Shown here piece by piece: positions 9,001 to 62,447 of a stretch of 64,000 nt of DNA. A model generated the notes under the pieces. That model was not told the origin of the DNA and searched no databases. It worked only from the letters and a program-made list of their open reading frames with translations. The translations under genes and the position numbers were made by a program. How positions within the stretch are numbered: the first letter of the stretch is position 1; each line of letters begins with the position of its first letter. Location of the stretch: NCBI RefSeq assembly GCF_963576615.1, contig NC_088708.1:27225191-27289190 (forward strand), in the 5' to 3' direction. Origin of the DNA: Watersipora subatra (lineage: Eukaryota > Bryozoa > Gymnolaemata > Cheilostomatida > Watersiporidae).

Positions 9001-11954
9001 TGAATGTATAGATTATAAATGTACATCTCTGCACTCTTGTAAAGGTGGCTATAATTAGGTCACTCAATTTTCTTATTAAGGTATACCTAGCAGGCGCCAG
9101 TCAACTTTTCTTTCTCTCCACTGTCAGTATCTATGAAATGTTGTATTGTGCCGGTGTTGTTCCATGAATCGCGAATCGGTTGTAATAACTTTATATTCTA
9201 TGCATGTATGGCACGTATGTCCAAGGTCTATTTATATGTATTTGCAGTCTCGAGATATCGATAAAGGAAAAAGAACCCAAATTAGGGAAGCCAATTTCTA
9301 TTTTTTTATAGAAGCAGCTATCGCTCTCTTCGTATCATTTCTCATCAATCTGTTTGTGACCTCAGTCTTTGCTGAAGGTTTCTACGGCAAGACAAATGCA
9401 GATGTGGTAAGTTGCTAGCTTCACTTCACTTTTTAATGACTGGCAACAGTATACACAGTATCCTGAATCTTAATATAATACTTTAATTAGACACAGTAGT
9501 CAGTGAACCAAGTTACTCTCTCTCTTATTTGTAGTCTGAGCAGTGCATCAACTCAACCTTGCCAGAGTCCTTCACTAGTGCCTTTGGAGCTAATGTGAGT
9601 ATCTTGGGACCTTTATCTTTCCCTAACTGTTTTATACTTATGTTTATGGTAGCTGAGTTTTTAACAGACGTCTATAGATGTAGCATATGCTTTATATGCA
9701 TATGTAGCATATTTTTATTTCCTTGAGAATCTATGAATAAGGTGATACAATATTTATTGATTTGCAGGACACCGAAGATGCAAGTCTCTCTGTGGATCTC
9801 TACAAAGGGGTAGGTTGACTCAATCTTTTGATTTCACCGACTCCTCAAGTATGTGATGGCTTGTCTATTAAATGCTACTTACTCAACAGCTAGGTAACTG
9901 ACATGTGGAACTTTATATATTGCATCCCTTTTGTTGCTGTCTGCAGGGTGTGTTCTTAGGATGTGCTTATGGGGCAGCTGCTATGTATATCTGGGGTGTA
10001 GGTATTTTGGCAGCCGGACAAAGTTCAACTATGACAGGCACATATGCTGGACAGTTTGCTATGGAGGTATGCTTTTCATGAGATACTCATTGTCTTTGAC
10101 TTATATGTAATATACGAATATATGTATGGATGCAAAGTAAAACTGCTAAAACGTGCATGATTAAAATTTTTCCTAAACCAAGCTTTCACATCTTTTCGGA
10201 ATTCCTTTCGCAGTATTTTGCGATGGGAAAATAATTCCTCCTAACAGCCTCAGGGTAACATAATTTTCAGATTGCCATCAGCAGTGTCTTGAAATATGTA
10301 GACACTTGGTTAGTGTTTTTTTAAAATTTATCATGCAGCTTTTAGAAAACTTCAGTATTAAATAATGTCTAAGGTACCAAAAGTAACGCTCACATTTATT
10401 ACTCTTGTATAATCATTACAAGCAATAGAATTACAAGTAACATGTTTATATATATACTAGCTGCATAACTCGTCCACGGGAACAGATTCATGTGTAATAA
10501 GAGGTTTATTAAGAGTTGTCTTTCATACTGTAAAACAACTCCAAATATGCAGTCTACTGAAATTGTTGTGCTGATTAGACTATGCATACACATATATGCA
10601 GTCATCCATGTCAATAATGTTGGGGAGAACAATGGAAATCTGCAATGTGTTTTACAGCTAATCTACATTGCATCAGTCTCAAACCACTCAAATTGGAGTT
10701 GTCTTATTTTTATACAGAGAACTGATAATGAAATTGACATTGCTAGGCAAACTGAAGTTCTTCAAACTGGCAGTATTGAAAAATTTTGCATCTTTTAAGA
10801 AATTCAACAAAATATTTTGCTATTGTACTGCTGAGCTATTGCAGGCATTGATTAAATGGAGACTTCTACATGCTTAAAACACTAATCATGGCTCACCAGT
10901 TCTCCGTCTATAGCCTGTGTTTTGACATGGTATACACAAACAGTGCCGCAGTTATGTGGTTGTGTTGATAAAATTAATGATCAGTAAAATTTTATGTATA
11001 GCAGCACAGACAGTATGATGTCAAAGCAGATACAGCATTAGCACCTTACAATAATAAAACAACGTCAACATGATTCCCTTTTTGCCGAGCAGAAACTATT
11101 GAGCAAATACGGCTTTGGCAAGAACAGACCAGAATGACTACTAAAGCCGTTTCTAAAAGTGAATGCAATGGTGGGCTTTTTTGTAATATACCCTGCTCTC
11201 TTTCTTCTCACTGTCGCCTATCGCAATGTTCGAAGTACCCTTGCAAGTTCTGTAGTAGTAAGTTACAGTATTCGTAGTTGGAAAAACATTAGTAACTCAG
11301 CTGCGGAAGGAAATGAACATGTTTACTATCATGAACAGTGGCAAATCCAACGGTTTTAAGTAGTGGAAGTGTGTCAACTCATAGGCAGTACAACATTGAA
11401 TGAGAAGTACTTACCATTCTGAAGTAGAAAGTTAGTAGGTAAAACCAATGATATACAGCCCCCAGGGGGCTGTATATCATTGGTAAAACATGAAAATAAT
11501 TGTTTAGGTGGCCGCAAGAAACAAACGTTCACGTGACCTTTCTTGTACTAGGAAATATTAATATTTAGTAGTAAATATTAATTACATGTAATTTACTACT
11601 CGTTAATTTATTTAATGAGTAGTAAATTTTATTTAATTTACTACTAATTTAATTTCACTACTCATATTAATTCAGTTCACTTTGTACGACCGAATCGAAA
11701 TAAGGAAAGACCACTCTATAATCTACACACACGCACACAAATATACAGACAGAATTTTTGCCATTTATATAGTGGATATTGAAATTTATCATACCTAGAA
11801 CTAAAATCACAGTGCTCAACATACAATGGAGCAGTATAAATCAGTAGAAAATTAGTAGAAAACCTAATTTTCTACTAACTTATATATATATATTGTCAGC
11901 ACATTGCCTTACTTAAAGTCTGTGAGGCAACTTAGTTGTTTCATGGGAGAAAGT

Positions 11955-12016
<62 letters not shown>

Positions 12017-14186
12017 GATACATATATATATACGATATATATATATATATATATATATACGATACATATATATATATACGATACATATATATATATATAT
12101 ATATATACGATACATATATTATGATGTATGGCCAAACCTGACCCGGTCTGTATATCCCAGTCGTTGTTTTATTCTAGTTTCCTCTCAGCTGCCACTATAT
12201 CGCATAAACTTGCTAAGAACGGTGATCGGCAGCATGACAACCCAATGCAATGAACAATAAACGAATAAAACAAATGCAATAAATGAACTGTCAATTACTT
12301 GTAGTTGATAGAATCCAAGAGATTTTGTCGGTTGATTGATAAAATGCCAGGAAGTCAGCTACTGTCAAAGTAACTAATCAAACTATTTGACGACAATTTG
12401 ATTATCTTGCGATCTTCTCTTCCTGTAGGGCTTCCTCAATCTCAGATGGAAAAAATGGCAGAGAATTCTGCTGACACGAACCATTGCAATCTCACCGACT
12501 GTGATAATAGCTGCATTCGCAGGTATAGAAGATCTAACAGGGCTCAATGATATACTAAATGTCGTCATGAGCATGCAACTCCCATTTGCAGTTCTTCCGA
12601 TACTAGCATTCACAAGTAACAAATCGCTCATGGAGGAGTTTGCCAATGGAATGTAAGCGGTTTGTGCCATAAATTGTTTTGCTGGCCCGGTATGTACAAT
12701 TTAAAGTAGATTTATTTGCTACCTTCTTTACCTTGTAAATCTTCCTAAACTGCAGACTTTATATGTTACAGGGTGTCTATGGTAATAACAGGAGTATTTG
12801 GGGTTATCGTTATCGCCATAAACATCTTCTTTGTGGTTGAAACGATGGTCAATCAGATGTCACACTTACATTGGGCACTGATATTACTCGCGGCTCTAGT
12901 TGCAGTTGCATACCTTCTCTTCATACTATATTTAGTACGTATTTTACCCATGACTTTGCGTTGTATTTGTAAGAATATTCAGTGTGTGATCGCATGGTGT
13001 TCCTATTCATAGACATAGTATTAGCAGAAATACACATGGCTTTTTTTATTTAAAAAGTTTAGTTGATTTTCATCTTTTCTTAAAGGTTGACTTGCAACAA
13101 AATTCACATTACAGTTATTTGGTATCAAAAGACTCACCATGTCTTACTCTGTTGTGTTGTAAGTGCCAAATATGTGGAAATGTGATTACAAGCTTTTAAA
13201 AGCTCAAAAACGAAAAGCCGCCGTAGATTGGAATCTCTTTATTCCGATGACGTAACCACGAAATTTGGTTATCGTCTTGTCACGTATGTTCTCATGTGAA
13301 TTGAAAGGCCAATGCAAAGCTCAATATAAAACTTATCGTAGCACTAGTTTATGACAAACACTTCGGGTTTTACCGAAGACCCCGTATCAAATATAGATGC
13401 TCGCTACTTTACAGTTTTGTTTCGGCATTATTCAATCGTCAAGTCGTTCTCTGATCGTGTGACCTAATACTTCGCAAATAATTTTTGCAGCAATTTTCGA
13501 TTATCACAGGTGACCAACAGGCTCGTCATGATTATCAGACAATGATATGTACTCCTTCGAGCTAAGGTTAAACAGTTTAACGATTTTTTACGGTAAGTTA
13601 TAAGATATCACTGCTAAAAGTGACAGCATTACAATGACGATAAAACAGACGCGTAAGAACAATAGACATAGTTTTATTGAATGCGTGAAGTATATTTGTG
13701 AAAAGATTTCGACGAATAGGGTTGCAAGAAAGTGTAAACAGAAACCATCTCTTACAACTACATCACATTTGAGCCGTTTTGGAAAGGGAATCCAAACTAC
13801 GGCGGTCTCGTGTGGCTGCGATTTTCTGTTCATTTTTGAGCTTTTAAGAGCTTGTAATCACCTTTCCACATATTTTGCACCTACAACACAACAGAGTAAG
13901 ACATGGTGAATCTTTTCATATCAAATAACGGTAATGTGAATTTTGTTGCATGTCAACCTTTAACTAAATTGCTCTCCTAGTTTTCACACAACTTAATTTC
14001 TGTTTTCATCTAGTTAAAACCAAGGTAAATTTCTTGTCTCTTATCGTATATTTATTACAGGGCTGGTATTGCTTGGTACAGATGGGAGTGGAACGTCTAG
14101 CTGTTGGTATTGTTCAGGTAATTCCCCCATCGAGAAAGCCTCGTGCAGTGTACTACAACAGCACATCAAGCTTGGTTGCTGATTAA
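54..14186 (+). CDS. Nramp: NRAMP/DMT1-type divalent metal transporter, 5' partial
   Basis: Proton-coupled Fe2+/Mn2+ membrane transporter of the SLC11 family. Exons, all GT-AG and phase-consistent: 54-219, 726-786, 6016-6157 or 7756-7894 (alternative copies), 8541-8696, 9248-9406, 9535-9594, 9768-9809, 9947-10066, 12429-12652, 12772-12934, 14061-14186 (TAA). With one alternative exon the total is 1416 nt, about 471 residues. Visible family marks are [44 protein letters not shown], the metal-site MPHN motif followed by [33 protein letters not shown] and a C-terminal YLGWYCL segment like DMT1 YLGWQCL. TM1 with the DPGN motif must lie upstream of base 1. The last exon reads through a GT to TAA, giving a tail ending SSLVAD; splicing at 14118 to an unseen exon is possible but not needed. 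Family assignment is firm; ortholog naming within SLC11 is not. Confidence 0.96.
293..352 (+). repeat. Exact 30-bp tandem duplication with donor consensus
   Basis: Two perfect adjacent 30-bp units in the intron after the first visible NRAMP exon. Each contains AGAG|GTAAGT, a near-ideal 5' splice site. No coding exon is visible upstream of them, so they are decoy donors at most. Confidence 0.85.
977..1507. mobile_element. TA-flanked mariner-like MITE
   Basis: The ends are TACAGTAGACACC at the left and GGTCCACTGTA at the right, imperfect terminal inverted repeats bounded by TA. No ORF is present. TA target and CAGTRGACCC termini fit a Tc1/mariner-type miniature element. Fragments with similar ends occur near 3300-3370 and 57775-57805. 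Confidence 0.6.
2190..3290 (-). pseudogene. LINE reverse transcriptase remnant
   Basis: Minus-strand reading frames, broken by stops and shifts, match reverse transcriptase of non-LTR retrotransposons in the expected order: an RPIS-like block near 3050, [12 protein letters not shown] (thumb of the DFSKAFDTIDH motif) near 2850, VPQGS with [11 protein letters not shown] and then LFADDT near 2580-2700, and [13 protein letters not shown] near 2230. Its PQGS/ADD block differs from the LINE at 25954, so it is a different family. It lies inside an NRAMP intron and is dead. Confidence 0.75.
3300..5950. other. NRAMP intron sequence, nothing firmly recognised
   Basis: AT-rich intron. A 107-codon open frame at 4771-5094 has no recognisable motif and is probably chance. 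A stretch near 5635-5665 matches 24455-24488 in inverted orientation, marking an unnamed dispersed repeat. Confidence 0.5.
6016..6157 (+). other. NRAMP alternative exon 3a
   Basis: 142-nt exon encoding [12 protein letters not shown] followed by [18 protein letters not shown] and ending LSYGYE. Acceptor is gtag and donor gag|gtaagg. It enters in phase 2 and leaves in phase 0, exactly like copy 3b. Against 3b it has one extra ATA codon (ITII versus ITI) and Tyr for Phe near the end. The flanking intron is also similar between copies, so a segment of roughly 200 bp was duplicated. The extra Ile in a membrane helix is unusual for the family. Its donor lies in a hairpin with 6180-6206. Confidence 0.85.
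6180..6206 (+). promoter_or_regulatory. Inverted arm complementary to both exon 3 donor sites
   Basis: These 27 nt are the exact reverse complement of 7878-7904, the exon 3b end plus donor. They pair 25/27 with 6141-6167, the exon 3a end plus donor, leaving a 12-nt loop at 6168-6179. In the pre-mRNA the arm could mask either donor. The complementarity is read directly; a regulatory role is inference. Confidence 0.6.
7756..7894 (+). other. NRAMP alternative exon 3b
   Basis: 139-nt exon encoding [29 protein letters not shown] and LSFGYE, the canonical family length and sequence (DMT1 has LTFGYE). Acceptor is acag, a better match than in 3a; donor is gag|gtaagg. Joining 3a to 3b would read 3b out of frame to a TGA at 7891-7893. 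This copy is probably the constitutive or ancestral one. Confidence 0.9.
8671..9050 (+). repeat. Decayed tandem repeat seeded from an NRAMP exon end
   Basis: About five degenerate units of 60-70 bp. Each contains a version of the exon's last ~30 bp and its donor: exon end ATGTATCTCCACTCC...GTAAAG|GTATGG, then intronic copies such as TGTATCTCTACTACACCC followed by TTATAAAG|GTATAT. A 19-bp perfect hairpin (8714-8732 with 8736-8754, loop GGA) lies in the first unit. The array reuses exon sequence as intron and supplies several cryptic donors. Confidence 0.7.
11446..11482. mobile_element. 37-bp palindromic micro-element, copy 1
   Basis: Arms CAATGATATACAGCCCC and its exact complement make up nearly the whole element. 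It is flanked by perfect 7-bp target duplications GTAAAAC (11439-11445 and 11483-11489). The same element recurs at 23728 and 61940. Confidence 0.85.
11957..12119. repeat. (TA)n microsatellite with CGATACA interruptions
   Basis: About 160 bp of TA dinucleotides broken at intervals by the motif ACGATACATA. Open frames on both strands are low-complexity Tyr/Ile artefacts. Confidence 0.9.
13084..13959. mobile_element. TTAA-flanked long-TIR MITE
   Basis: 876-bp element in the last NRAMP intron. TTAA lies at 13080-13083 and 13960-13963. Termini start AGGTTGAC and inverted repeats extend over 130 bp or more, matching 13084-13210 against 13845-13959. No transposase is seen. TTAA target preference is typical of piggyBac and Kolobok elements; the superfamily is not resolved. 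A third terminus sits at 31178. Confidence 0.75.
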
Positions 14187-15925: not shown

Positions 15926-15929
15926 CATA

Positions 15930-18750
15930 TGCAGAGAACTCACACACCTTTTAGCTCCAAAAAGAAGCATGAAGAAAATTTTAGCAGTGTAATTATTTTT
16001 ATTCATGCTTTGAGATAAATATAGTGCATGAAATGATATCAATAGGTCCAATTAACAAAGGTGAGTTTTAAGATTTCTGTGCCCATAGACAGAACAAAGG
16101 AGCAACAGGTCTAAGCACACCTCTCGCTCACGGATGGCTGTGAACACTTGTTTCAGGTTGGATGTTGACATGTTGTAATAAGAGTGAAAAGCTGGATGTT
16201 CCTCCAGGAGTATTTTCCAGAGTACTTTCTCTCTTTGCGAGTGTTTTTATGAACAGCTTTACTCTGCAGTTTTGTTAAATTTTCACTAGAGATCTTAACT
16301 GTATCTTTACTTATGCTTCTATCACTTCTCCACACCAGCTGGACATGTATATTATCCTCCTCTCTTGATTGTGTGATATTTCCAGTGATTCAATGTCTCA
16401 GTGCAGTGTTGAATCTTAGGTGCTAGATGCATATTTCAAGAACAGAAAGTACAACGACATGCATGATATCAACATAGCTTTCGCTGATGCACTTATGCAA
16501 TTCATTTGCAAGCCTTACCCTTAGCCTTACACATTTTGTTAGCAATAATTATCCTGTCTTGGGATGATTAGACACTGATCCCCAAATCTTTACTCCTTGT
16601 CTAGTCAATGTCGTACTATTTATGGTGTACCTGTACTTTTGTGTTTTTTTGTTTGAATGGGAATTTTTCGATTAAAACTCATACTCCATGTCTTGAACCA
16701 GTAACTCAGTGTGCCCAAAATTGCCTGAAATCTCAACTCGGCCCCTTGTTATCTACTGTCTGCTTTATCAGTCCTGACAATGTATATGCATACACTCTAA
16801 ACTAGTAACACAAAAATAAAATACAAAGTTTGCTAAGTGTTTTGTAGAACTTGCTCAACATACAGCTAGCCTCTCAAACTACCCTGAAAATACTATTAAT
16901 GAATGTCTATAACGTTTAGTGCTATTGCCGACAACAATGAGAATTATCTCTGCATTATTTGTCTGCAATTCCGGCCTTAGATCTATTATCTCTTCTCTCC
17001 CGGTTTTCTACTTGAATTCCCTCATCTTAATTCATAATATTTTTTTATGTCTTGCAACTTTTGGACAGCCTATTTGGGTTTTTGGCAATTTAGTATTATT
17101 GGTCCGAATTCCTACACAGCAGTCAAGCTAACTTGATAAGCCATTGATGCAATGAAACCAGCACCTGACCTGAGTACTGAACCCTGAAGTCTCCATGATC
17201 CACTGAGAGCATCCCAGACTGGGTACCATCATTAAGAATATGATATTGCTTCTTTTTCACAGTGTCATATATCCAGTTGATAATATACAAGCTGTCGAGC
17301 TCGTAGCTGTCTGTACCAAGAATATTCACAAGTATTTTAGGATTATAGATCGGGGAACTCTATCAATAACCGCAATTAGATTAGGAATTGCTTTACAAAC
17401 ATTGTTCTTCTTGTCTGCAGAGTGGAACAGTTTATGAAAAATTGCATACCTGTGTCCTCACAACACAATCCTTTTTTGAATCACTATTGTCTGTGATGAA
17501 ACCACCCATCCATTTTCTGTGATGCCAAGGTCAGAGCGATGTATTCCAGCAGTTTACAAGATTATACGCTGTATAAGACGGAAATTTGACATCAAAGTTT
17601 AAGATTAAAAATTCGTCCTCAACTTACACAGCGGTGACATTTTTCACAACACAAATTTTAGTAAAATTCAAAACAAAAAACCATTGCAAATCACAATTAC
17701 ATGATATGAGATATAGATTTATTTATAAAATAGTAAAATATTAGTAGTCCTACTCAAAATGAGATAGATCCAACACAGCCCCATTCTTCAGCATTGAAAT
17801 TGTCATAGCTAAAATTCTCTTCAAGAGTGCGCTGTTGCAAATTTAAAGCTTTATTGTAGTATCTGCCTACAAGCCCACACTGCGGTAATCCATTCGGCAC
17901 ATCCGGCCCACACTGCGGTAATCCATTCGGCACATCCGCTGTCGTCTATCCATCATTTTTTTGTACACGAGTCATGATTCCTGACAGAAATTTGTCTTGC
18001 AGCATTGCTTTTCTGTTAAATACATATTATCAGAGATGACAGTTTCATTCTATTGGCGAGGCAGACCAAAATGATGATGCGATGTCTTCTCTCATTCTTT
18101 TGTTACCAGCAATGGTTGTGTTGTCGACGGCACAAAAACACAGGCATTTTTGCTGATAGCATTTTTGAATGTCATTTCTTCAGCTACACATCGCCCGCCT
18201 CTGATGCTGACTGAACTATTCCGATCAAGCAATTTGAGCCAGAGAAGGGGTCAACTTATAAGGCAGCCACATGTCAAAACCATGATTTTTAAATCAAACT
18301 TCAGCGTACGCCGACTCGAGTCGTATGCTGGGTTGACTTGTACGCCGGAATTTACGGTATATACATAGATAATCGGGAGCATGTACCGATAGTTATGATA
18401 TTTCCCGCAGGAAAGAGTTCAGCTACCATCTTATACGTATGAAGGCATGCTAGTACAGCCTGAGGAATGAAAATGCATAAAACTCTCAGTAGCTGGAAAC
18501 AAAGAGAAGTAGATGTTTAAACCTTATAATACTTTATTAAAAGCTTGTTAACTTGTTTAACACTGTCTTCTTAGCCAATTTAGTGTCATTTTCACAATTA
18601 TACTAACTTATCTGTCATATAGTTGCCTGCTACTTGCCAGGCTAATGGCAAGTAGCAGGCAACTACATTCCCTCTCACTGTTTTTAAGTTGATTTTTAAT
18701 ACCCTTGCTAAGCCGGGCATTTCGCTAGTACATATACATTGTATGTATCT
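15930..18750. other. Intergenic, few landmarks
   Basis: No gene is recognised. A 34-bp direct duplication lies near 17873-17940. A perfect 20-bp hairpin lies at 18620-18639 with 18646-18665 (loop GGCTAA). Confidence 0.5.
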
Positions 18751-18752
18751 AT

Positions 18753-20100: not shown

Positions 20101-21702
20101 GCTTTTGTGTAATTTCTATTTCAGATTCCTTGCGGTGAGCTAAAATTCCTTACTGTGGTTGGGATTCCATGACGACAAGCGAATGAGAAGTGAAAAATAT
20201 TCTAAGTCCGGTAACAAATTGTACAAAATTGGCCATAACTCAAAAACTAACAATGGCAGCATTATAAAATTAATTTTACAGTAATCCTCGTTCTAAGACG
20301 CTATTAGCTAGCTAATTTATATGAAGCAAGAGAAACTATTATCATATTATGCCATTCTTTGTACAACCATTTCGTCGATATTTTCTCATGAAATACAATA
20401 TCTGAGTTAATGAATAATTATGCTATATTTTTCTACTGCTCTACAATATAACATTTTCTAGACTATAATGATTTTATAAGCTATAACTAAATATACTAAA
20501 TAAAGTGTTGTAAATGATTCTTTCACTGATGGCTGGTTGCTGATCTGGTGCACGCCGGCTGCTTCTTCGCTCCAACAAGTCATTAGTGTGGCTGGCTCCT
20601 GTAATATTGGCGATATATCTCCATTTTTGCCGGATACTCTGTAGAGTTGTTTGCTTTGCTGAATATCCATTAATAATTGTTGTAGCCAGTTAGTCTCTTT
20701 CATATTAAGTGGTGTTGATCAATAATAATCGTGATTTAGTGACAATTTTATGCTGTTTTTCATTCATTAAGCTTTTCATTATAATGATCAGACAACTCCC
20801 AATCGAAATGATGTCCCATATATTCACATTGCATCAGCTGTGATAGTTGGACAACTCCTATGCTTGATATTTCCAGCAGCATAGCAATTGCCATATATTT
20901 CATGTCTGCTTATTGATGCATCACAGTGCTTGCTGCAATGTTTTGCAGCAGTTGTGGTATTAGGTGATCCCACAATTTATTATTTCTTTTGACTTTTGGT
21001 CATCTATTGCTTCAAACCCTGACACCTGTGTCCTTCTTTGCAATTTGTTGGCATTTTCAATTTTTATTTCATTCTAAATTTGGAGACACATTTTTATTTT
21101 ATATCTACATTTAACAATGTTGCATAAAAACTCATTGCACTCATTGATATGTTTGCTACAGTTTTCAACCAATACTAGCTTTTTATGTGCAATAGCAGTA
21201 GAGTTATAAGCATCAATCTATCGTAAGCCGTGTTAAGATAGCCGCAAGGATGCTATTAAATAACATGCTATAAATTTGCATATTTATAAGTTATATATTG
21301 ATAATCTATCAAATGATACAAATATATATTCATGAACAAGTGACATAAACAAACCATACTTATACTACTGAAGAAACAGAAATTTACGTTTTTAAAACAA
21401 AAATATTTCCATCGTTTGCTCGGATATCTGCGTTCTGATTGTTGCTTTCATAGAGTTACCTCCCGCTAGAGTGATAACTACACGAGCGTTTCTGGTGCCA
21501 ACAAGGAGCGTTCAGGCCACGCTTCTTTTTTGTGCTAGTCAGTCGTAGTGATTGACTAGATCAATAACATCAGCCATGAGAAGGGTTAAACAAGGATCAT
21601 GAATTCCAGTTGAGATAGTAATTAATGCTCATATTAAAGAAATGATGATTATAGTTTATTACTCTAATATATGCTTATTATTTAAAGCAATTCAGTACCT
21701 AC

Positions 21703-22486
21703 CAGGGATCGCTAAACATATTATGGAAATGTTTACTTTTTCATTTCCATAAACATAAATATTTCCATAATTTTAGGGAAATGGATATTGAAATTTTATT
21801 TTACAAGTATGGAAATGGTATATGAAAATGGAAATAATATGGAAATGAATTATGGAAATGAAATTAATATGGAAATGAATTATGGAAATGGAAATAATAT
21901 GGAAATGGAAATACTATGGAAATGAAGTAGGGAAATGGAATTAATATGGAAATGAATTATGGAAATGGAAATAATATGGAAATGGAAATAATATGGAAAT
22001 GAATTATGGAAATGGAATTAATATGGAAATGAATTATGGAAATGGAATTAATATGGAAATGGAAATACTATGGAAATGAAGTAGGGAAATGGAATTAATA
22101 TGGAAATGAATTATGGAAATGGAAATAATATGGAAATGGAAATAATATGGAAATGAATTATGGAAATGGAATTAATATGGAAATGAATTATGGAAATGGA
22201 AATAATATGGAAATGGAAATAATATGGAAATGAATTATGGAAATGGAATTAATATGGAAATGAATTATGGAAATGGAAATAATATGGAAATGGAAATAAT
22301 ATGGAAATGAATTATGGAAATGGAATTAATATGGAAACGAATTATGGAAATGGAAATAATATGGAAATGAATTATGGAAATGGAATTAATATGGAAAAGA
22401 ATTATGGAAATGGAAATAATATGGAAATGGAAATATTATGGAAATGAATTATGAAAATGGAAATTGTGACATACATGTAATCCCTG
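21703..22486. mobile_element. hAT-like MITE filled with a GGAAATG minisatellite
   Basis: Ends are CAGGGAT and ATCCCTG, with 8-bp flanks GTACCTAC and ATACCTGC (6/8). The interior from about 21780 to 22462 is a minisatellite of ATGGAAATG units alternating GAATT, GAAATAAT and GAATTAAT spacers in a higher-order pattern. The opposite arm of the host element lacks the segment, giving an empty-site comparison near 23836-23845. Confidence 0.65.
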
Positions 22487-23727
22487 ATACCTGCATGACT
22501 TGCCAAGGCACTGAATAGATAGTGAGTGAAAGCGAAGGTAATGCTAGCAGTTACTCATAGATAACATACATAGTCATACTGGGGTTGCATTACATTGGTG
22601 TGATGGGACGCTAATCAACTGCCATCAACTATGAGCTGTACTACCAGGTGTTGCCCGAGTAATAAAAAAGTATTTGGACAGAAAATTTAATTTTATATAA
22701 CATTTACTATTCTAACTTTTAAACTTCATATCATAAGAAAATATTTTTAAGCAATTTAAATGAATTAAGAGGAAAAAGAAAACAACTCTAAAGGTTTTCA
22801 AGCTTTTTCAAACAACTACAACTTTTTAATTTCATATCATGAAAGAAGTGTTTTGTTGAAATAAATTAGGAAAAAAAATAAAACTAAATGTGTTTAAATG
22901 TAAAATAATTAGCAAGTAATGGCTAAATATAATCTGTTTAGCTATGATTACAATGAAAAATTATTTAATAAATAAGGTAATAAAAAAGTATATTTTATTT
23001 TTATATAATTATAGTTAGTAGAATTAAGTATAATTTATTTTTATTTAATATATAACAACATTTGCCACTTTAACTTTCAAACAACATATTATGAAAAGTG
23101 TTTTGTGTAATTGAAATAAATGAAGAGAAGAGAGAAAATAAAAACAACTGTAAATGTTTTCAAGCTTATTCAAACAACTACCACTTTTAAATTTAATATC
23201 ATGAAAGAAGTTTTTTGTTGAAATGAATTAGGAAGAAAAATGAAACTGCAAATGTGTTTAAATGTAAATTAATTAGCAAGTAATGCTAATTATAATCTGT
23301 TTAGCTATGATTACAATAAAAAATTATTGTAATCATAGCTAATTTTATTACTTTATTTAATAAATAAAGTAATAAAAAGTCTATTTTATTTTTAAATAAT
23401 TATAATTTAGTATAATTAAGTATAATTTATTTTTATCTAACATATAACAACATTTGCCACTCTAACTTTCAAACTTTTTGCTTGCTTACATCAAGCAAAG
23501 ATGTCCACTAACTAGTGGACATCTTTGCTTCAAGCTAGTCTATGTATTTGATTGATATGTATTGAAATCTAAGATTATATGCAAGGGCTGTTTGTGAACT
23601 GAGGTGACAATGAATCACTCTATCACCATACAATGTCAATACTTTCAGTTGATGGCATTCGATTAGCTTCCTATCACACCAATGTAATACAACCCCAGTA
23701 TGACTATCTATCTTATCTATGAATAAC

Positions 23728-23770
23728 CAATGATATACAGCCCCTCATGTTTGGGGGCTGTATATCATTG
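23728..23770. mobile_element. 43-bp palindromic micro-element, copy 2
   Basis: Same CAATGATATACAGCCCC arms as copy 1, with a longer loop. Flanks are GAATAAC (23721-23727) and GAGTAAC (23771-23777), 6/7. The paralogous site in the other arm of the host element, near 22546-22556 on the opposite strand, has a single GAGTAAC and no insertion. Confidence 0.85.
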
Positions 23771-24239
23771 GAGTAACTGATTGCATTAACTCACTTACTT
23801 AACACCATCTATTCAGTGCCTTTTCAATGCATGTAGGTATTGAATTGCTTTAAATAATAAGCATATATTAGAGTAATAAACTATAATCATCATTTCTTTA
23901 ATATGAGCAATAATTACTCTCTTAACTGGAAATTCATGATCATTCTCATGGCTGACGTTATTGTTCTGTCGATCACTACGATTGACTAGCACAAAAAAAG
24001 GGGCGTGGCCTAAACGCTCCTTGTTGGCACCGGAAACGCTCGTGTTGTTGAATGCACAGTTATCACTCTAGGGGGAGATAACTCTATGGTTGCTTTCCAA
24101 TATCTTCTAGTTGTTCAATACCTTCCACAATATCTTCTGGCCTCAACTCTTCTTCTGCATGTCCAAACTAGTCGATATTAGCGTCCAAACGATATTTTGG
24201 CTGAGCAAAACTTTTATGCGTTGCATTTAACACAAATGC

Positions 24240-25953: not shown

Positions 25954-28900
25954 ATGGCAGTTAAAAGATGTCAAATAAACATCAATGGTATGTCCTAAAA
26001 CACCATAAAATCTCTGGAACAGTATGTGTGGAAGGAAAACATTGATATTGTGTGTCTATCAAAAACAAAATTGAGTGAACTTCTCATCAGTGTATTCTCA
26101 ATTATGAGCAGCATCATCAAGCCAAATCCGACTAACACTTATCAAAGAGGGGTGGCGCTATTAGCCAAAGACAACATACAACTCACCAGATACCCTGACC
26201 TTTAGCCGCATTCAGCAGACATGCTAGTCACTGTAGCAAAAGTGGGCACACATCGACTCTATATTTGTTCAGTGTACTCACCACCCAAAGAAAGCATAAA
26301 ACTAGAGGAAATTTTTCAAGCTACAGCAAACTTGAAAGACAAAATGGCAACACTTAAAGTTGATGGAATCCTTTTGATTGGTGATCTCAATGCTCGCCGT
26401 AAGACTTGGGGCGATCATTGTCAGAATTCATCGGGTGTCACCCTTTTTGAGTTCTCACAGAAAGTGGGACTAGAGGTCATCTACAAACATGACAACCCGA
26501 CATTTCTATGTGACGATGGCTCGAGCTTCATTGATTTGTTTGTCGCTTCTACAGACATCACTCGCTTTGTCAAGAATCAATATGCTTATAACACTGTTGA
26601 GCTTTTTACCGGTGCCCCACGTAAGGGTCACGTAACGGTCATAACAGAGCTCAATATATGCGTACCATCGACCAAGAAAAAGACCATATACAAATGGAAC
26701 AGCACTGATTAGTATTCCTTCAGTCGCACCCTAGAAACAACGTGTGAGCAGCACATTACTGACTTCTCCACAATGTCTCATGCAACTGTCATGTGGGAAG
26801 TCCTAAAAAATTTTTTACTTGAAACTAAAAAGTTACATGTCCCATCAGCAAAAACAAACAAACACAATAACTTCTACTGGAATGAAAAGCTTTTCAAGCT
26901 GTCTTCCCAACTTCGACAAGCTAGATCACGGTACAAATATCATTCCTCTTATGAAAATGGCAACGAGCTGAATTGAATTAAACAACTGTTTAAAAGTGAG
27001 CTATCAAGTGCACAACAAAAACACCTGGAATGCAAAGCTAGCAGAGTTAATGATCACAGTTCTGAAAGTTTCTGGAAGGACTTCAAATCTACATTTTACA
27101 AGAAAGATGAACACAATGTTGGGGATATTCTTGGATCACAAGATGAAGTTCTCAAGGACGGCAAATCCAAAGCAGAACACCTGCTTCATAATATATTTAG
27201 TGGATGTGGCACTCTAACCTACAACGATCCACCTGATCCAGTCAACTCTCAAGAGGCTACATAAAATGAACATTTGAGTCAGCTCAATGCCACCATTTCC
27301 ATGGATGAAATCAAACAGGCTGTCCATAAGCTTAAGCCATCATGAAAAAGTCCGAACTATGATGGTATCCATCCAAAAATGATCAAACAAGGAACAAACT
27401 TTTTTTTAATAGCGCTACACTGTCTCTTCAACAAGGTCATAGAAACTCACAAATGGGCATGGAACAACTGTAATCTAGTCATCTTTCTCCAAAAACCAGG
27501 AAAAAAGGATTACAGAAAGACAGGTTCATACCGTCCTATTACTATCAGCTCTTATGTTGGTAAGACGCTCGAAAGAATTCTGGAACGGAGATTACGCTCG
27601 TTAATTAAACATTGGTCTCTCATTCCAAATACTCAATATGGATTCAGGCAGGGTAGAGGTACACACTCTTACCTCCTCAACCTGCTCACCAAAGCTACAC
27701 ATAGCATGAAAAAGAGATTAACATGTGCAGCTCTTTTCTTAGACCTCCAGAAAGCATTTGACACAGTTTCACATCAGGTGATGCTATACAGATTAAAAGT
27801 TTGGAATTCACGGCAATTTCCTTGGTTTAGCCAACTCTTTTCTTACAGGCCGCCAAATAAACATCAAAGTAAACAACTATATCCACCCAGCACAGCCTTG
27901 CAATATAGGCTTACCACAAGGAAGTGTCTTATCTCCCCTACTATTCATTATATTTGTGAGAGACATGCTAACTGAAGTTGAAGGAACATCTCTCCAGTAT
28001 GCAGATGATTGCACTGTGCTGATGTCTGCAAGGGATGACTCTGAACTACAAGGAATGCTGCAAAACAACTGCCAAATTATAGAAACATGAATGGCGAAAT
28101 GGAAACTGCAAGTCAACTACCAGAAAACAAAAATTGTGGTGTTTAATAGGACCATATCTCCCCCGCCATAAACTTGAACTCTATCCAGTTGTCTCCCACA
28201 TCAAAAGTTTTAGGTATTACAATTGACCATCAACTCTCTTTTTTAAAACAGTGCTGCTCCAGCATAAGAAGTCTAACACAGCGATTCAACATGCTGAAAC
28301 CATTCATCTGCGCTGGCCTCAACTGTGAAACTGCCAGAAAAATATTTACTCAAGTCATATTGCCAAAAGCACTTTATGGGGCCTCACTCTGGGACATCAA
28401 CCCCAAAACCCCCGTTCTCTACCTATACATCAAGCTCCTTTTAGGAGCCCATTAACCCACCTAGCGACTCCCTACACCTACTGATTAACATGGGAAACAG
28501 TCCCAACATCGACATGTTCGAACCTAGACAAGTCCCGATCTCGACAGAGGTTGGTCCAAATCTAGACAAAGGTTGGTCTGAATATCGACAATTTATGCTG
28601 TATTGTACACCACCAATATCACAGTGATAGAAGAAATTCTACACCCACAAACTAGAAATAGCCTTCAGTGGTTATCTGATGAAGTATATAGTCCTAAGCT
28701 TAACGAGTTTTAAATTGATAGCATGCTTTTGCATAATCATTATCACATTGGTGATACCAAAATTGTAAATGAACTGCTCAGGAGAAGAAATTGAGAAAAT
28801 CAATGAACACAAGAAAATAATAAGACTATAGACTGTAAATTTCCATAAATAAAATAATAATGCAAAAATACAATAATTATATTAATAAATTTACTTATAA

Positions 28901-29840
28901 TTATAATAAAATTGGGACCAACTGCTGTCGAGATTGGACCAACCGTTGTCGATATACAAACTCGTCGAGCTTCAAACCCGTCGAGGTTCGGACTATAATC
29001 CATTAACATCCCTCCAATTAAACTATTATACATGAAGGAAAGAATGATGAATGTAAGAGAATTGGTAAAACCAAACCAATTGGATGTACTCACTAGCACC
29101 CAAAAAAGCCCAATAACAGCAGCTATTATAACAGACATCATAAAAATTCTAATTCACTGTTCAGTGCTACTCAAAGACATATCCTTAAATGATATATCGA
29201 AAATAAAAGTCAACAATTGTGTAGAAAAAGAATGGAAACGACAATGGACAGCTCTAATCAGAGATGGGAAATGCTCATATGGCCTTCTCTCAAATTTACA
29301 CCCAGATCATGTCTTCAACCAACCAATAAAACTGAACACCAAAAGAGAAAATCTTGGAGCTCTATGTGACCTGTTAACGGGCCAAAGCAGACTCTAATTA
29401 TTCCAATTCAGATCAGGATTGAGTTACAGCACAACTTGCACTTGTTTAAAAGAAGATGAATCCGCTCACCATTACCTCCATATATGTGCGGATTACAAAG
29501 ATGCTAGATCACACACACAGCCAACCGAAAATAGTTGGGACTCCATAATAGACTTCCTGCAAGTCACCCGTCGTCTCATGTTCACATGACAACATATGAC
29601 AATATTATAGCCCTGGTCAGGCGTTAACTCGACCAACACTAATCTTTACGGCGTCTACGGCCGTCTGACGTCAGGAGACCAGCGCCGCAGATGTTTGCAG
29701 ATACTGTCGACCCAAGCACTCAAGACAATTCTTGCCAAACGCTTAAAACAATCATGCCAAACACTCAATAAAATCTTGATTATGGAAAATTTTGCCAGTC
29801 AACATTGCCAAACATGAACAGTCAAAATAAACCCGTTCAT
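25954..29840 (+). pseudogene. Degenerate non-LTR retrotransposon (Jockey/CR1-like), nested MITE inside
   Basis: Order on the plus strand: an endonuclease start at 25954 (RCQININGMS then TAA); endonuclease frame 26221-26712 with SVYSPP, IGDLNARRKTWGD and SFIDLF; reverse transcriptase 27379-27975 with KPGKKDYRKTGSYRPIT, QYGFRQGRGT and FLDLQKAFDTVSH; then, after a frameshift, LPQGS, PLLFIIF and YADDCTVLMS near 27905-28030; and a C-terminal Cys/His motif CTCLKEDESAHHYLHIC near 29440-29495. Stops and frameshifts make it dead. It is interrupted at 28492-29001 by a MITE and resumes in register. The APE-type endonuclease excludes site-specific RLE clades; the exact clade is not assigned. Confidence 0.85.
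28492..29001 (+). mobile_element. 510-bp MITE, copy A, inside the LINE
   Basis: Starts GGGAAACAGTCC and ends GGACTATAATCC, flanked by perfect 8-bp duplications ATTAACAT (28484-28491 and 29002-29009). Copy B at 33244 is in inverse orientation and also 510 bp. Both ends carry an iterated motif around ATCTCGACA with GGTCC or GTCCGAA spacers. Eight-bp duplications suggest hAT, P or Merlin-type integration; not resolved. It encodes nothing. Confidence 0.8.
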
Positions 29841-30002: not shown

Positions 30003-30041
30003 CATCATATATATATAATGATGATATATAATGATATATAA

Positions 30042-30078
<37 letters not shown>

Positions 30079-30090: not shown

Positions 30091-30876
30091 AACAAAAAAT
30101 ATATAACTTTACATAGTTACATTTCTAATACATTGGTGCATTTATTTTATTATAAAAAGTGAGATATAGGCATACTAATATCAAAATATCATTGAGTCAG
30201 AAATGTAGGCCTACCTAAATATACTTAAAGTATTATAAAATGAAAAGTGCAGGAGAACACAAATGTAACTTGTTAGTTTTTGTTGGAAACTGTTTATGTG
30301 ATGCAGTACTGATGCTATAGCTGCGACAGTTATCGCTGAATTTGAGCAAGCGTTTGCCTTGTTTTTATCCATAGATATATATACCTAGATTGGCCAATAG
30401 GGAAAAAGCCTGTCAGACCTAAATAGCACGACGCAACGTCACTGTATTGTACCTCACGCTTGACTGCACCGCTGTTTACAATGAATCTAATGGGAAGGTA
30501 ACAAAATTACATTTATTTTCACATAAAAACCTTGTATACATAATCCAGTAAACTAAAGCAATTCTGTGATAATATCTGATAACCACCATAGATTAAAACT
30601 ATAAAAGCTATGAATTGTTGCACACAAATCATGAGCCATCATGGCTTTATTTGCAACCTCTCTTATCCCCATTCTCTCTTTTCCCCTTCTCCAAAGAATA
30701 AGTTAGAAGGGGAAAAGAGAGAAGGGGAATGGAGAGGGGAGGGGAAATAGTCCACCCACTCAAAGAGCCAGACCTTGGCTAGGTAAATAGACTAATATGC
30801 TGAACTAAACATGACTAAATATGATGAGTATGCAAATGTCTGAAGTCAAAAATGAGACAGAATGATTATTTTACAG

Positions 30877-31173
30877 CTGGCTAGGTCAACAAAGCTGAAG
30901 TGTAATGATTGTATCACTAGCATTGTGGATGTTACCAACGTTGATGTAAATCAAGCAATGAATTCCCTAATTACAGTTAAGAATCAGGGTGGCTTGGCTT
31001 TGTCTTCGCCTGTGGTGATTGAGGTTTGCAACCACAGCGAGAAAGCGACAAGAGTGTTGCTTAGTAGTGCTGGATTGGCGAAAAACTTTGCCAGGCTAGC
31101 ACTAATTGCCACCACTAAGAAGCCAGTCACGAAAGGACAATACCAAGTTATTTGTACAATATGCATAAGCAAG
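30877..31173 (+). pseudogene. P/THAP9-type transposase C-terminal exon, truncated
   Basis: Open for 99 codons after the acceptor ttattttacag. It encodes LKCNDCITSI and then VKNQGGLALSSPVVIEVCNH, resembling the C-terminal domain of P-element and THAP9 transposases (Cys pair, then a GGL...PS.VV block). At 31174 it runs into a TTAA-inserting MITE terminus, which supplies the last codons of the open frame up to 31224. Catalytic core exons are absent. Identification is from motif resemblance only. Confidence 0.6.
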
Positions 31174-31177
31174 TTAA

Positions 31178-31310
31178 AGGTTGACTTGCAACAAAATTCA
31201 CATTGCAGTTATTTGGTATCATAAGATTCACCATGCCTTACTCTGTTGTGTTGTAGGTGTGAAATATATGAGAAGGTGATTACAAGCTCTTAAAAGCTAA
31301 AAACTTATAC
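31178..31310. mobile_element. Third terminus of the TTAA-flanked MITE
   Basis: TTAA at 31174-31177 is followed by AGGTTGACTTGCAAC and about 130 bp closely matching 13084-13215. The opposite terminus was not found; after 31313 another inverted-repeat-like sequence begins (ACAGTCATACTTCAACTTACG). Confidence 0.65.
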
Positions 31311-31682: not shown

Positions 31683-32618
31683 TTAAAAGACAAACTCTAA
31701 TGTTGGTATGGTATTGGCCTTCAATCTAGTTTTTTTCCCAACACCAGGTGATACTTGGTAGCTGTCACTAGTGAAGTGGTCTGAACAAAGTACAGAAGAT
31801 TTACTTGGGGTCCACTGTTCTCGTCTCACTGCTTTAATCCAGGCATCCTTGCGATCAGCAGCAGTAGGAAAACTTAACAAGTAATAAAAGATACATACAA
31901 TTAGTGGTGTTTTTTGCTCATTGGATTATTGACTTTTTGCCTTTGAGAAGTGTAACATTAACCTTGTCAAATAATGGAAACTTTTAAGCCTGATTATAGC
32001 CAAAGATAACCATGCTCCAAGCCATGCTCATGTAGTATGTTCATGAATTCTCCCAACGATTAGCAGGGTGAATGTTTGTTATATTGTCCTACCTGTGGAA
32101 GCTTTTCTCTGGGCATTTTCTTGGATAATTGGAACATCCAAAGGCAACGCAGCAATTCTTACTAGTCCTCTCAGATGACTGTGAGCTTGATGAATAATGG
32201 TGAGATCGCTGCCAAAATAGCAATGAATATGAATTCCATTCTGACTTGGTGATTTATAGCAAGATGGTATCCAAATTAATGACTCAAGCATCACAAAGTA
32301 GCAGTATTACACAAGCAGCTCCTTGGGCAAAGTTAAAGAAACCTTCCAAGAGAGAGTCAATCAGTTAATGAATCAAACAAGTTGACGTTGATAGTAACTT
32401 GACAAACAATGATGTCTGCTGATTTGGTTGTCTTCAATAATTTTTTCAAAGTGTCAAATATGGGGAAAATATGTCCACTATTGGTATGAAAACTGTTCTA
32501 GTTTTTACTATAAAGCCTTACAGCTGATATTTAGGAGTTCCAAGCCTATCTTTGATATTAAAAGTAGTAAAAAACTCACCTTAGTAGCAGCTGACACACT
32601 CTTCTCAGCTTCAGCCAT
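31683..32618 (-). CDS. THAP-domain-only protein, three exons, intact
   Basis: Exons on the minus strand are 32618-32580 (ATG), 32208-32093 and 31872-31683 (TAA). Total is 345 nt, 114 residues, with consistent phases and GT-AG boundaries. The C2CH zinc-binding DNA-binding THAP domain is complete: NCCVAFGCSN, KSFHSFP, WIKAVRREQW, CSDHF, and the closing TIPTLEF in place of AVPTIF. The protein stops right after the domain. AATAAA (minus strand, 31676-31671) follows the stop within about 10 nt. It starts just inside the right inverted repeat of the P element, as the first exons of a P transposase would. It may be a repressor-like truncated transposase or an exapted gene; expression is unknown. Confidence 0.8.
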
Positions 32619-50670: not shown

Positions 50671-50699
50671 ACACTATATGTATATTATAAATTGTAATC

Positions 50700-52390: not shown

Positions 52391-52394
52391 AATC

Positions 52395-54630: not shown

Positions 54631-54654
54631 GACATTTTTTGGTAGCTGTTTTCC

Positions 54655-54660
54655 AATAAA
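54655..54660 (+). terminator. Polyadenylation signal of the LDLa gene
   Basis: AATAAA 25 nt after the stop codon, giving a very short 3' UTR. Confidence 0.7.
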
Positions 54661-56630: not shown

Positions 56631-56635
56631 CCTAT

Positions 56636-59600: not shown

Positions 59601-62447
59601 ATCACTCTGATGCTAATGGACACACCAAAAAGTCATGATAAAACTCAACACTTTTAGAAAACTCTTCAATTTAGCCTCTGAAAATCCTTGAACTATAGAA
59701 ATCCTCAAGGTTCAGTCATATCAGTAACTAGAGACATTTCACTCCCAAGACTTATAAAAACTGCAAAACATTTCCACTCCAATAGACTTATACCTAATAA
59801 AATGGATCGGGATGGATGGGTATCTCGATACTTGTCCAACACATTCTTAACATGGGGATCCTTGTCTACGGGATGAAGCTGTGACGCTGTTTTAACATGG
59901 TTCTGCAAATCTTTCATCTTATAATCGTGATACTTGTACATACTCAGATGCTGGTCAATGTTAAAATCGCAGTCCTCTTTGTAAGTGTTTCCAAACTTGA
60001 AGGGTGAACGAGGAATATAGCCTAAAATAAATTTACAGTATCTTCAGCTATGACAAAATTTTCTTGAGCAAATGACTCTAATCCTTGTTTTGTTGATGAA
60101 TGGTATCTACAACATTGCAACCAAATCTAAGAATCGATCTCAGCAAAAAGCAAATAACAACAGATTTAGAGCTTGCGACGAACAGCAATAGTAGCTTTAT
60201 TTAATGTACCAAACCTGACTTTTAATGAATCACACTACAATCAAAGTTAGGTGTCGCTCATCAATTCTACAGCCATATATGAATTAGTTATGCCAATAGT
60301 CAAACACTGGTTATTCTTGAGAAGACAACTCCGTGTGATGTGAGTTTGTGCTTTATGACCCTATGACTGACTTATTATTATGACAAGATCACTACAAGGA
60401 GTTAATTTTATAACGGTATCTAAGAGTATCTATGTACATATAATCATAAAGTTCTATAGAGTTTTTATAAAGTTATCTATAAAGTGTTTATTGATATGTC
60501 TATGACACCAGCCTTACCACTAAAGCTGAGTCTATAACATCATAGGCAAACGTCTAATACAAAGTAGTCTCTATAAGTATTGTGTCATTGTATCTTGTTC
60601 TAACAAAGCACCATCATGTATGTAACCCTTATGATGTTGATGAATTATTTTAAACTAATTTAAATCCTTTTGTTTTTGCAATTTAAAAGTTTTTTTCCAT
60701 AAATTGCACATTTTTTGTGTAACTCTCAATAACTCCAAACAACTTCAATGCTACAAGTAAAGTCTAAAGTGATATCCAACCCTGTGTAAAAACATCGATC
60801 AAGTCAGCAAAAAAATTCAAAGCAAAAAGGGTTTCATGAGCTGACATTTTTCAGTTTTGCCGTATATGTTTAGTTAGAAGAGAGCCATTCTGTAAAAGTT
60901 AGTAGTCCTCTATACACAGCAACTAAATAAATGACAAAAGCCAAAATTTAATTTGAGCGCCGTGAATCTGTTTATATATAGTCAAATACATAAAGTCAAA
61001 GAACAAACATGCCAATCATCTACAACCTGCTTACTGCAATATGTTCCAATCATGTTATACCTGTATAGCCAGGTACCATCTGTTCTGTGTATTTGTTATC
61101 TCCAGTAGCGCTGGGAAGTTTATTTGACAACACAGGTTTTGGATTGGAAGGTCCAACTGGAGGCAGAGGGTGGACATGATCAGTTTTTGCAGAAAGTTCG
61201 CTTGTATCAGTGCCATATGTTTTTCCAACTCGATACTTTATCTGTGGGCAATACCCTCGGTAGCTGGGAGTTACACAAAACAATGCATGCAATGCGTGCA
61301 ACTTTGGTAAAGATTTAACGTGTTGTTTAAAAAAAAAGCTAATTGATCTCAAGCTACAACAAGAATGGGAAGGAAAAGTTTACTAATTATAATTCAGCTA
61401 CAAGCATGCAAGGAGGGAAACTTTGGACTAAATGTCCCGATAAACCTTTTCAAACTTGCAAATAAAATGTGAGACAACAGTAGGCTGTGATGTTGTGCAC
61501 GCGTTGCAAAAATAATGTCAAAATTTGGCGGGTTTATACATGTAAAGATACCATCACTGAGCGAGTCCTGACAACAATGTTTATCAATTTGATGAAATCT
61601 TTTTTCTACAACCGAAAAACCTTAAAATAATTGTCGTAAGATAATGGTCATCTGACGGCAAAAATGAACTAAATCATTTTGAGAGTTTGTAATGTTCAGT
61701 ACAAAAACTGAAAACAATTTTTTTGTTTACAGGCATATATATGTAGCAAGAAAAGTGTTATTCTTTATAAGTTTTAATCTCATTGTAGTCAATAAGCTAT
61801 ACATTCTTATAATGCAATCACTAGTAAATGTTAATTCACAGCTGATATCAATATATGCAGAGAGCGACTGTGTACAGCAGTATATTTTTTAACATAACAA
61901 TTTTGGTGAATAGGAAGAATCTATAAGAGAGGGAAGAAGCAATGATATACAGCCCCTATGGGGCTGTATATCATTGGAAGAAGTAAGATTTACAGCAATT
62001 TAATGGTCAAAATCTATAATTTAACAGCTACGTAATACTCCAAACTACTGTACTCACAAAAAATTTAGCTGATAACAAAAAATAAGCCCATTGTAAGTGC
62101 CTATCTATTTGCTACTTCCAAATCAAAATTTTCAAGTTATCTCAACGCCTACAATATTTAATACATCGCAAAAAGAATTACAGCAACATTTTTCTAATAA
62201 ATTCAAAATCATTAAATAAATATTTTTATTGGTCTATCATCCTTAAATGTTCTGAAACTTAACTTTATGACAACCACGTATATGACAACCACGTAGCGAC
62301 CTTTCATGCGACTCAAAACCTAACACGACGTACACCTGAGCATAAAACTATAAAATTATACCCTGGTACATGAGTGCCTTCTCTCAAGCCTGCAAACTCT
62401 CTTCTTTGAAATACGTCAGGTCCTCCACCAAGAGCTATGGTGGTCAT
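56636..62447 (-). CDS. CIMIP2B: CIMIP2B/FAM166B-like ciliary microtubule inner protein
   Basis: Exons on the minus strand: 62447-62362 (ATG), 61263-61061, 60021-59794, 59374-59284, 58931-58839, 58079-57991, 56769-56636 (TAG). Total 924 nt, 307 residues, every phase consistent. The protein is built of repeated PGY.G..P...F.FG.TYG modules: VPGYRGYCPQIKYRVGKTYG, VPGYTGYIPRSPFKFGNTYK, MPGYKGFIPRINV, PKYTGYLPQRRFAFGNTYGD. This is the signature of FAM166/CIMIP2 proteins, which bind inside the doublet microtubules of motile cilia (family knowledge). It stands head-to-head with HDAC. A/B/C paralog assignment is tentative; length fits CIMIP2B best. Confidence 0.9.
57301..57415. repeat. 42-bp tandem repeat
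   Basis: 2.7 nearly perfect units containing GAGCTGCAGGTATTACCTC, in the last intron of the CIMIP2B-like gene. Confidence 0.85.
59587..59620. repeat. Perfect 15-bp-arm hairpin
   Basis: TCCATTAGCATCAGA and its exact complement around TCAC, in an intron of the CIMIP2B-like gene; no target duplication visible. Confidence 0.85.
60062..60350 (-). pseudogene. Duplicated partial exon 5 of the CIMIP2B-like gene
   Basis: Matches 58890-59180 closely over about 290 bp, including the exon 5 acceptor and its first ~50 coding bases, but ends inside the exon before the donor. It lies between exons 2 and 3. Spliced onto exon 2 its frame would hit TAG within ten codons, so it is a dead pseudo-exon. Confidence 0.8.
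61940..61976. mobile_element. 37-bp palindromic micro-element, copy 3
   Basis: CAATGATATACAGCCCC arms around TAT, flanked by perfect 7-bp duplications GAAGAAG (61933-61939 and 61977-61983), in intron 1 of the CIMIP2B-like gene. Confidence 0.88.

Follow-up and report, generated by a model that had tools for sequence, protein, structure and literature searches.

The three palindromes and their surroundings

The stretch of DNA analysed here (hereafter the window; 64,000 nt, forward strand, positions 27,225,191-27,289,190 of contig NC_088708.1, assembly GCF_963576615.1) belongs to the bryozoan Watersipora subatra and contains retrotransposon fragments (PF14529, PF00078), a THAP domain and a CTU1-like zinc ribbon (PF16503); this eukaryotic content, together with a genome of 784 Mb, rules out a bacterial mobile element. 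Within it, a sequence-only reading had described three copies of an ultra-short palindromic mobile element. The palindromes themselves (37, 43 and 37 bp, with perfect 17-bp arms in 6/6 cases) and their flanking duplications are indeed present as described, and the relevant features are the following (a dot marks a feature listed without strand):

11439..11445 (.): 7-bp target duplication GTAAAAC, copy 1, left side
11446..11482 (.): candidate footprint 1, 17-nt end, filler CAG and 17-nt end, 37 bp
11483..11489 (.): 7-bp target duplication GTAAAAC, copy 1, right side
21449..24088 (.): inverted-repeat transposon hosting footprint 2, termini CATAGAGTTAyCTCCCsCTAGAGTGATAACT
22550..22556 (-): paralogous empty site, one GAGTAAC in the other arm of the host transposon
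23721..23727 (.): 7-bp target duplication GAATAAC, copy 2, left side, with 1 difference from GAGTAAC
23728..23770 (.): candidate footprint 2, 17-nt end, filler TCATGTTTG and 17-nt end, 43 bp
23771..23777 (.): 7-bp target duplication GAGTAAC, copy 2, right side
61933..61939 (.): 7-bp target duplication GAAGAAG, copy 3, left side
61940..61976 (.): candidate footprint 3, 17-nt end, filler TAT and 17-nt end, 37 bp
61977..61983 (.): 7-bp target duplication GAAGAAG, copy 3, right side

In all three copies both arms are full and separated by a filler, and the centres are not alike; copies 1 and 3 are identical except at the 3 central positions out of 37 (P = 0.0045). With up to 3 mismatches the 17-mer is matched seven times in the window (chance expectation 0.14), the seventh match (23680-23696, 3 mismatches) being part of the host transposon, and identical 7-mers 37 bp apart occur at 0.28% of window positions (181/63,920). 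Under the rules used, the other palindromes of the window carry no exact 7- or 8-bp duplication, with the exception of AT microsatellites (12022-12107) and of a tandem-repeat stretch (8738-8822); the palindrome at 23493-23530 has a 7-bp duplication with one mismatch. A search of the window for trimmed footprints, requiring a minimum of 4 nt from each end and of 10 nt overall as well as a duplication with at most 1 mismatch, returned none besides the three palindromes, and no full transposon with the palindrome's ends was found within the window.

The empty site reported for copy 2 is genuine: if the insert and one of the duplications are omitted, the two arms of the host transposon align there without gaps. 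The scar of copy 2 is found again in other genomic copies of the host transposon, the sites where this transposon bears it having a TCATG-type centre in common; this shows that a footprint can be carried to new sites with no movement of its own.

Relatives of the palindromes in the genome

The 17-mer has 4,016 exact matches in the genome, of which 100 listed arms were examined; these all come from the part of contig 1 that runs from 30 kb to 16.6 Mb, the window itself being at 27.2 Mb. In this sample, 59 of the 100 listed places fall within short remnants that have a second 7-bp repeat (at most 1 mismatch), and the listed copies do not form one cluster. The same 100 places include longer elements, of 697-843 bp, with identical 17-bp ends and 7-bp duplications. 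In the 11 full elements whose two ends were read, the duplications are exact in 9 and show one mismatch in 2; the terminal repeats start with CAATGATATACAGCCCC and extend beyond nt 17 to about 60 bp, and the short forms hold just the outermost 17 nt of these repeats. Bases 18-20 differ among the full elements, so that a stagger of 17 nt is indistinguishable from one of 18-20. No coding frame longer than 87 aa is present in the seven 0.8-kb elements read. Outside this genome, the 17-mer gave 0 matches in viral_contigs and 16 single arms in genome_contigs, none of them with a partner arm at fewer than 7 mismatches within 80 bp; these single arms are taken as chance.

Anatomy of the short forms

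The short copies analysed comprise 32 scars (30 from the sample and 2 from the window; copies borne by the host transposon were omitted, and site 16348485 and the 2 window copies were added by hand). The 7-bp duplications are exact in 25/32, and agreement at an eighth base (8/32) is at chance level. Fillers range from 0 to 48 nt in length and are distinct in 28/32 scars; four centres (CAG, CATTT, C and none) are each common to two unrelated sites, copy 1 of the window being counted. Both arms are whole, with filler, in 15/32, while the second arm is trimmed in 17/32; allowing for point changes, its length is 17 nt in 15 scars, 16 in six, 15 in two, 14 in two, 13 in five, 12 in one and 10 in one.

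The fillers of at least 6 nt match the arm over a mean of 7.5 nt, compared to 3.8 for shuffles; in 8 of these 15 longer fillers the arm match is equalled by at most 25/500 shuffles, while in the other 7 clear copying is not evident. One of the eight, at site 5175539, may instead represent a complete arm into which 2 bp were inserted. The inner motif AAGGATAG is absent from 29/29 fillers tested, which places the limit of end retention in these scars between 17 and about 20 nt; intact elements, too, are variable immediately past nt 17. Ten GTGTGGG sites with a common flank, probably one amplified event, retain about 50 nt of one end, so not all remnants end at 17.

The preferred target is the same in scars and full elements: the right-hand duplications carry T at position 2 in 27/31 scars and 10/11 full elements, and A at position 6 in 24/31 scars and 11/11 full elements; symmetrised counts (one host copy included) are 52/64 for T2/A6 and 28/64 for G1/C7. 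Scar targets favour G or A, then T, three free positions, A, and C or T.

Origin of the palindromes

The most satisfactory explanation, to which we assign a probability of about 0.85, is that the palindromes are footprints left when a non-autonomous transposon, about 0.8 kb long, was cut some 17 nt inside its ends and the break was closed by error-prone end joining. The element, with its ends CAATGATATACAGCCCC, would insert with duplication of 7 bp and a preference for nTnnnAn; a transposase would later free it by a staggered cut, through one strand at the very edge of the transposon and through its partner some 17 nt further in, so that each chromosome end would retain the duplication followed by a 3' tail made of 17 nt of the transposon. 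As these tails are non-complementary, they would have to be joined by error-prone end joining, frequently with trimming on one side and with a filler at times templated by the tails themselves, in the manner of DNA polymerase theta; the expected product begins and ends with the duplication and has in between one 17-nt end, the filler and the other 17-nt end in inverted orientation.

The proposal that transposition had occurred is thus retained in part: the duplications and the empty site indicate that a DNA transposon acted at these sites, while a moving element of 37-43 bp is not what they point to. Such an ultra-short MITE, itself excised and inserted by a transposase supplied from elsewhere, appears highly improbable, even though the perfect arms, the 7-bp duplications and the clean empty site of the window are what it would produce, and even though almost half of the scars have both arms whole and unrelated sites occasionally have the same centre. 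A burst from a master copy should give one common centre, the internal sequence that a master's descendants share, whereas here nearly all centres are distinct, more than half of the second arms are trimmed and the fillers are partly copied from the arms; moreover, the genome contains a 0.8-kb element that has the same duplications but longer terminal repeats. The claim of an ultra-short mobile element is therefore probably wrong. Individual centres and trimmed second arms rather suggest repaired excision breaks: the remnants lie between duplications of the parent's length (7 bp in both), they are made up of the extreme ends of a longer element of the same genome, and their junctions differ individually in filler and trimming. 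It is also very unlikely that the short forms are internal deletions, left with two short ends and no fixed stagger when sister-chromatid gap repair was aborted; the ten GTGTGGG sites, with their longer retained end, could be so explained, but the inner motif is missing from all 29 other fillers and retention ends at or before the variable bases past nt 17.

If the palindromes are excision footprints, the transposase responsible most likely belongs, by analogy, to the P superfamily. A smaller, still appreciable chance is left to a transposase from another superfamily making 7-bp duplications; hAT7 and KDZ elements of the Kyakuja type are examples. The nTnnnAn preference also suits a hAT-like element, but hAT excision leaves changes within the duplication and is not known to leave 17 nt of transposon end. 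A duplication length of 7 bp is common to hAT7 and Kyakuja, and the latter has termini of the CA..TG type but is described as being without terminal inverted repeats (PMC12730594); furthermore, retention of 17 nt is the pattern of P (PMC7776569, PMC2895639), whose superfamily includes an element with 7-bp duplications, Galileo (PMC4168063).

Comparison with the P superfamily

The P transposase cuts with a 17-nt stagger (PMC7776569), and the Drosophila P repair junctions that have been sequenced are scars of the same anatomy: the two duplications enclose two stretches of terminal repeat of no more than 17 nt each, and between these lies a filler that is in part a copy of neighbouring sequence (PMC2895639, Tables 1-3). 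They differ in having 8-bp duplications and in deriving from designed crosses with one marked element; they also show more trimming and microhomology, whereas the scars described here are natural, lie at many sites, have 7-bp duplications and more often keep full arms. Two full arms and a filler are seen in 15/32 scars here and in only 7/114 Drosophila isolates (0/66, 3/23 and 4/25 in the individual sets, the last two from theta mutants; totals counted by hand from PMC2895639).

Galileo, a Drosophila member of the superfamily, likewise has 7-bp duplications and a palindromic target, GTATTAC or GTANTAC (PMC4168063); the parent element here is 0.8 kb long with repeats of about 60 bp, and the likeness is not based on a transposase relationship. 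The P-MITEs of Anopheles gambiae are similarly non-autonomous and keep P-type ends, but have 8-bp duplications and a known P master (PMC1562414). Duplications of 7-8 bp and a palindromic target of GT..AC type, both found here, are traits of the P superfamily, the T/A part being common to hAT.

Similarity of the 17-mer to the ends of Drosophila P and zebrafish Pdre2 is not significant (the score is reached by 657/5,000 and 4,932/5,000 shuffles, respectively); these two ends are unlike each other, which makes the test a weak one. A THAP9_C-like fragment at 30862-31224 was rejected as evidence for P, since it scores 18.1 bits against a curated cut-off of 24, and a PDB search with it had no P transposase among the matches listed. 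A literature search among open-licence papers yielded no description recognised as genome-wide P footprints or as MITEs this short.

Implications

The would-be record for the smallest mobile element falls away, and a rule takes its place: short palindromes with individual centres, lying between target duplications, may be scars rather than elements. Such scars allow the cleavage stagger and the end-joining habits of a species to be read without experiments. More tentatively, the genome of W. subatra could be a fossil record of the order of a thousand or more excisions, displaying a P-like transposase stagger and theta-type end joining; possibly the cut end was also imperfectly resealed at each move, each transposition rewriting the join between end and body. 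Should a P-type transposase confirm that a 17-nt stagger goes together with 7-bp duplications here, this would be a sign that the unusual cut of P extends beyond the Drosophila P element.

Palindromes of the window

The three palindromes of the window, found at the positions assigned to them by the sequence-only reading, are most likely scars rather than elements: what was observed stands, but the interpretation as an ultra-short mobile element probably does not, given the existence of a longer parent, the varied fillers (the bases between the arms) and the trimmed arms described below. Every one of the six arms matches the 17-mer CAATGATATACAGCCCC exactly.

11446-11482, copy 1, centre CAG
23728-23770, copy 2, centre TCATGTTTG
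61940-61976, copy 3, centre TAT
21449-24088, host transposon of copy 2, a long inverted repeat with copy 2 in one arm

Each palindrome carries a 7-bp repeat on both sides, with one mismatch in the pair of copy 2, and the opposite arm of the host transposon indeed reads as an empty site with a single GAGTAAC (22550-22556, reverse strand), the two host arms aligning without gaps at this motif once the insert and one repeat are omitted; the trace of transposition seen in the duplications and the empty site is real. Since only 0.14 arm matches with up to three mismatches are expected by chance in the window, where identical 7-mers occur at palindrome spacing at 0.28% of positions, a chance origin of palindromes with duplications is excluded. 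Copies 1 and 3, equal in length, differ at two positions, both among the three middle bases of 37 (P = 0.0045), and this is a clue, a burst from one master being expected to yield a common centre, which an end-joining scar need not have. The scar of copy 2 (GAATAAC/GAGTAAC, TCATG-type centre) recurs in further copies of its host (L027, L039 and others) and has spread as a passenger of that transposon. A satellite-like array with 13- and 17-bp steps (ATGGAAATGGAAATAAT type; 21713-22553) occupies part of the host arm opposite copy 2.

Setting and neighbouring features

The window, which is eukaryotic and, to judge by its genes, probably animal-like, covers bases 27,225,191-27,289,190 of contig 1 in an assembly of 783.7 Mb and 239 contigs; its gene content comprises a retrotransposon endonuclease and reverse transcriptase fragment, a CTU1-like zinc ribbon and a THAP domain. 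The THAP exon and a THAP9_C-like fragment are near neighbours, with imperfect inverted repeats on either side. For neither perfect palindrome listed here was a duplication of at least 5 bp or a second copy within the window found.

31686-31925, minus strand, THAP-domain exon (PF05485, E 6.9e-12)
30862-31224, plus strand, THAP9_C-like fragment (18.1 bits, below the cut-off of 24)
30321-30483 and 32616-32807, the imperfect inverted repeats
28492-29001, 0.5-kb element inside a retrotransposon, ends GGGAAACAGTCC...GGACTATAATCC, 8-bp duplication ATTAACAT read by eye
about 33245-33753, second, inverted copy of the 0.5-kb element, about 96-97% alike
18620-18665 (20-bp arms) and 35831-35894 (30-bp arms), perfect palindromes with TA close to the edges

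Genome sample and probable parent element

Exact matches to the 17-mer number 4,016 genome-wide, against none for the reversed control. The sample consists of the 100 places listed among these matches, on contig 1 between 30 kb and 16.6 Mb (loci L017-L099). Counted by coordinate, 59 of these 100 are part of short remnants in which the 7-bp repeat recurs with no more than one mismatch, and 14 of the 59 sit in the transposon that hosts copy 2; a further 22 are ends running into the inner sequence of the parent, and 19 fall outside both rules, including, by eye, one parent end, host copies with a lost or altered repeat and complex arm arrays. Under another rule, without coordinates, the same 100 places divide into 52, 29 and 19.

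At seven sampled places both arms are exact, lie 697-843 bp apart and belong to elements alignable over their entire length (an eighth pair spans 1,342 bp and was dropped because it covers one of the seven plus an adjacent remnant). In four further elements (L038, L100-L102) an exact arm is paired with an altered one at a distance of 797-818 bp; for L033, a search over 1.5 kb revealed no second end. The 7-bp duplications of these 11 full elements are exact in nine and have one mismatch in two. Beyond the 17-mer, the parent terminal repeat continues as (variable bases)-AAGGATAGsCGACGGCTATCATATGGGCGGGGTTTAATGAT, so that the window palindromes represent only its outermost 17 nt. Translation of the seven elements gave no reading frame longer than 87 aa, and for this reason the 0.8-kb elements look non-autonomous.

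Anatomy of the probable scars

The distinct short sites in the sample number 49, namely nine host copies, ten GTGTGGG sites and 30 others, among them site 16348485, which the motif rule of the script had set aside and which was added by hand; these 30 and window copies 1 and 3 form the set of 32 scars. If scars were evenly spread, about 30 per 16.5 Mb of contig 1 would extrapolate roughly to the order of 1,400 genome-wide; this figure is based on a portion of a single contig and on scars in which one arm or both are intact.

Duplications are exact in 25 of the 32; agreement at the eighth flanking base (8/32 in an earlier set of scars) is at chance level, and the duplication is therefore 7 bp long. 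Filler length runs from 0 to 48 nt, with 28 of the 32 fillers distinct, the centres occurring twice being CAG, CATTT, C and no filler. With the first arm fixed at 17 nt by the choice of sample, the second, point changes allowed, is 17 nt long in 15 scars, 16 in six, 15 in two, 14 in two, 13 in five, 12 in one and 10 in one. In the 15 fillers of at least 6 nt the longest arm match averages 7.5 nt versus 3.8 nt in shuffles; for eight of them at most 25 of 500 shuffles equal it (site 5175539, one of the eight, may instead represent an untrimmed arm bearing a 2-bp insertion), and two tested fillers hold the entire 17-mer again.

In right-hand duplications (31 scars, site 16348485 left out), T occupies position 2 in 27 scars and in 10/11 full elements, and A position 6 in 24 and 11/11, respectively; from this common preference both look like the output of one integration reaction. 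The ten GTGTGGG sites (L017, L030, L042, L049, L061, L062, L064, L069, L070, L079; L032, L041 and L045 resemble them by eye) carry the same partly deleted element between GTGTGGG-type repeats, retain about 50 nt of one parent end, as expected from interrupted gap repair, and, since all have an identical outer flank, are probably one amplified event, a derivative multiplied inside another repeat.

Probable excision, repair and transposase family

P transposase makes a staggered cut, one strand being severed at the edge of the transposon and its partner 17 nt inward (PMC7776569, in excerpt); the donor ends are left with non-complementary 17-nt tails. In sequenced Drosophila repair junctions a filler sits between two stretches of up to 17 nt, with a duplication on the outside of each (PMC2895639, in excerpt), and by our own count 11 of 66 isolates in Table 1 of the latter paper have an insertion and keep 15 nt or more on each side. 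The present scars are alike in anatomy, filler length and tail-copied fillers. The fit is less good in that two full arms with a filler are more frequent here, in 15/32 scars and all three window copies, against 7/114 Drosophila isolates (hand-counted), perhaps because the CCCC-ending tails give less microhomology than the Drosophila ends. From the likeness, the 0.8-kb element would have been excised by a transposase of about 17-nt stagger, and the breaks healed by theta-type end joining.

The bases directly after nucleotide 17 vary among intact elements (A, C, CC, CAC, CAT; e.g., L092, L043, L060, L101), even between both ends of a single one, AAGGATAG beyond being mostly constant; because of this variation the stagger could be anything from 17 to 20, slippage in the C-run being the plain alternative explanation of the variation. 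From the 17-nt retention we infer that the transposase probably belongs to the P superfamily; the target nTnnnAn would suit hAT too. No significant similarity was found between the 17-mer and the ends of Drosophila P or zebrafish Pdre2. Galileo, of the P superfamily, makes 7-bp duplications at a palindromic GT..AC target, GTATTAC or GTANTAC (PMC4168063, in excerpt); such duplications also come from hAT7 and Kyakuja (PMC12730594, in excerpt).

Laboratory flies have already yielded scars of this kind; to the extent that searches of open-licence papers show, the novelty is a natural record of them at many sites in another genome.
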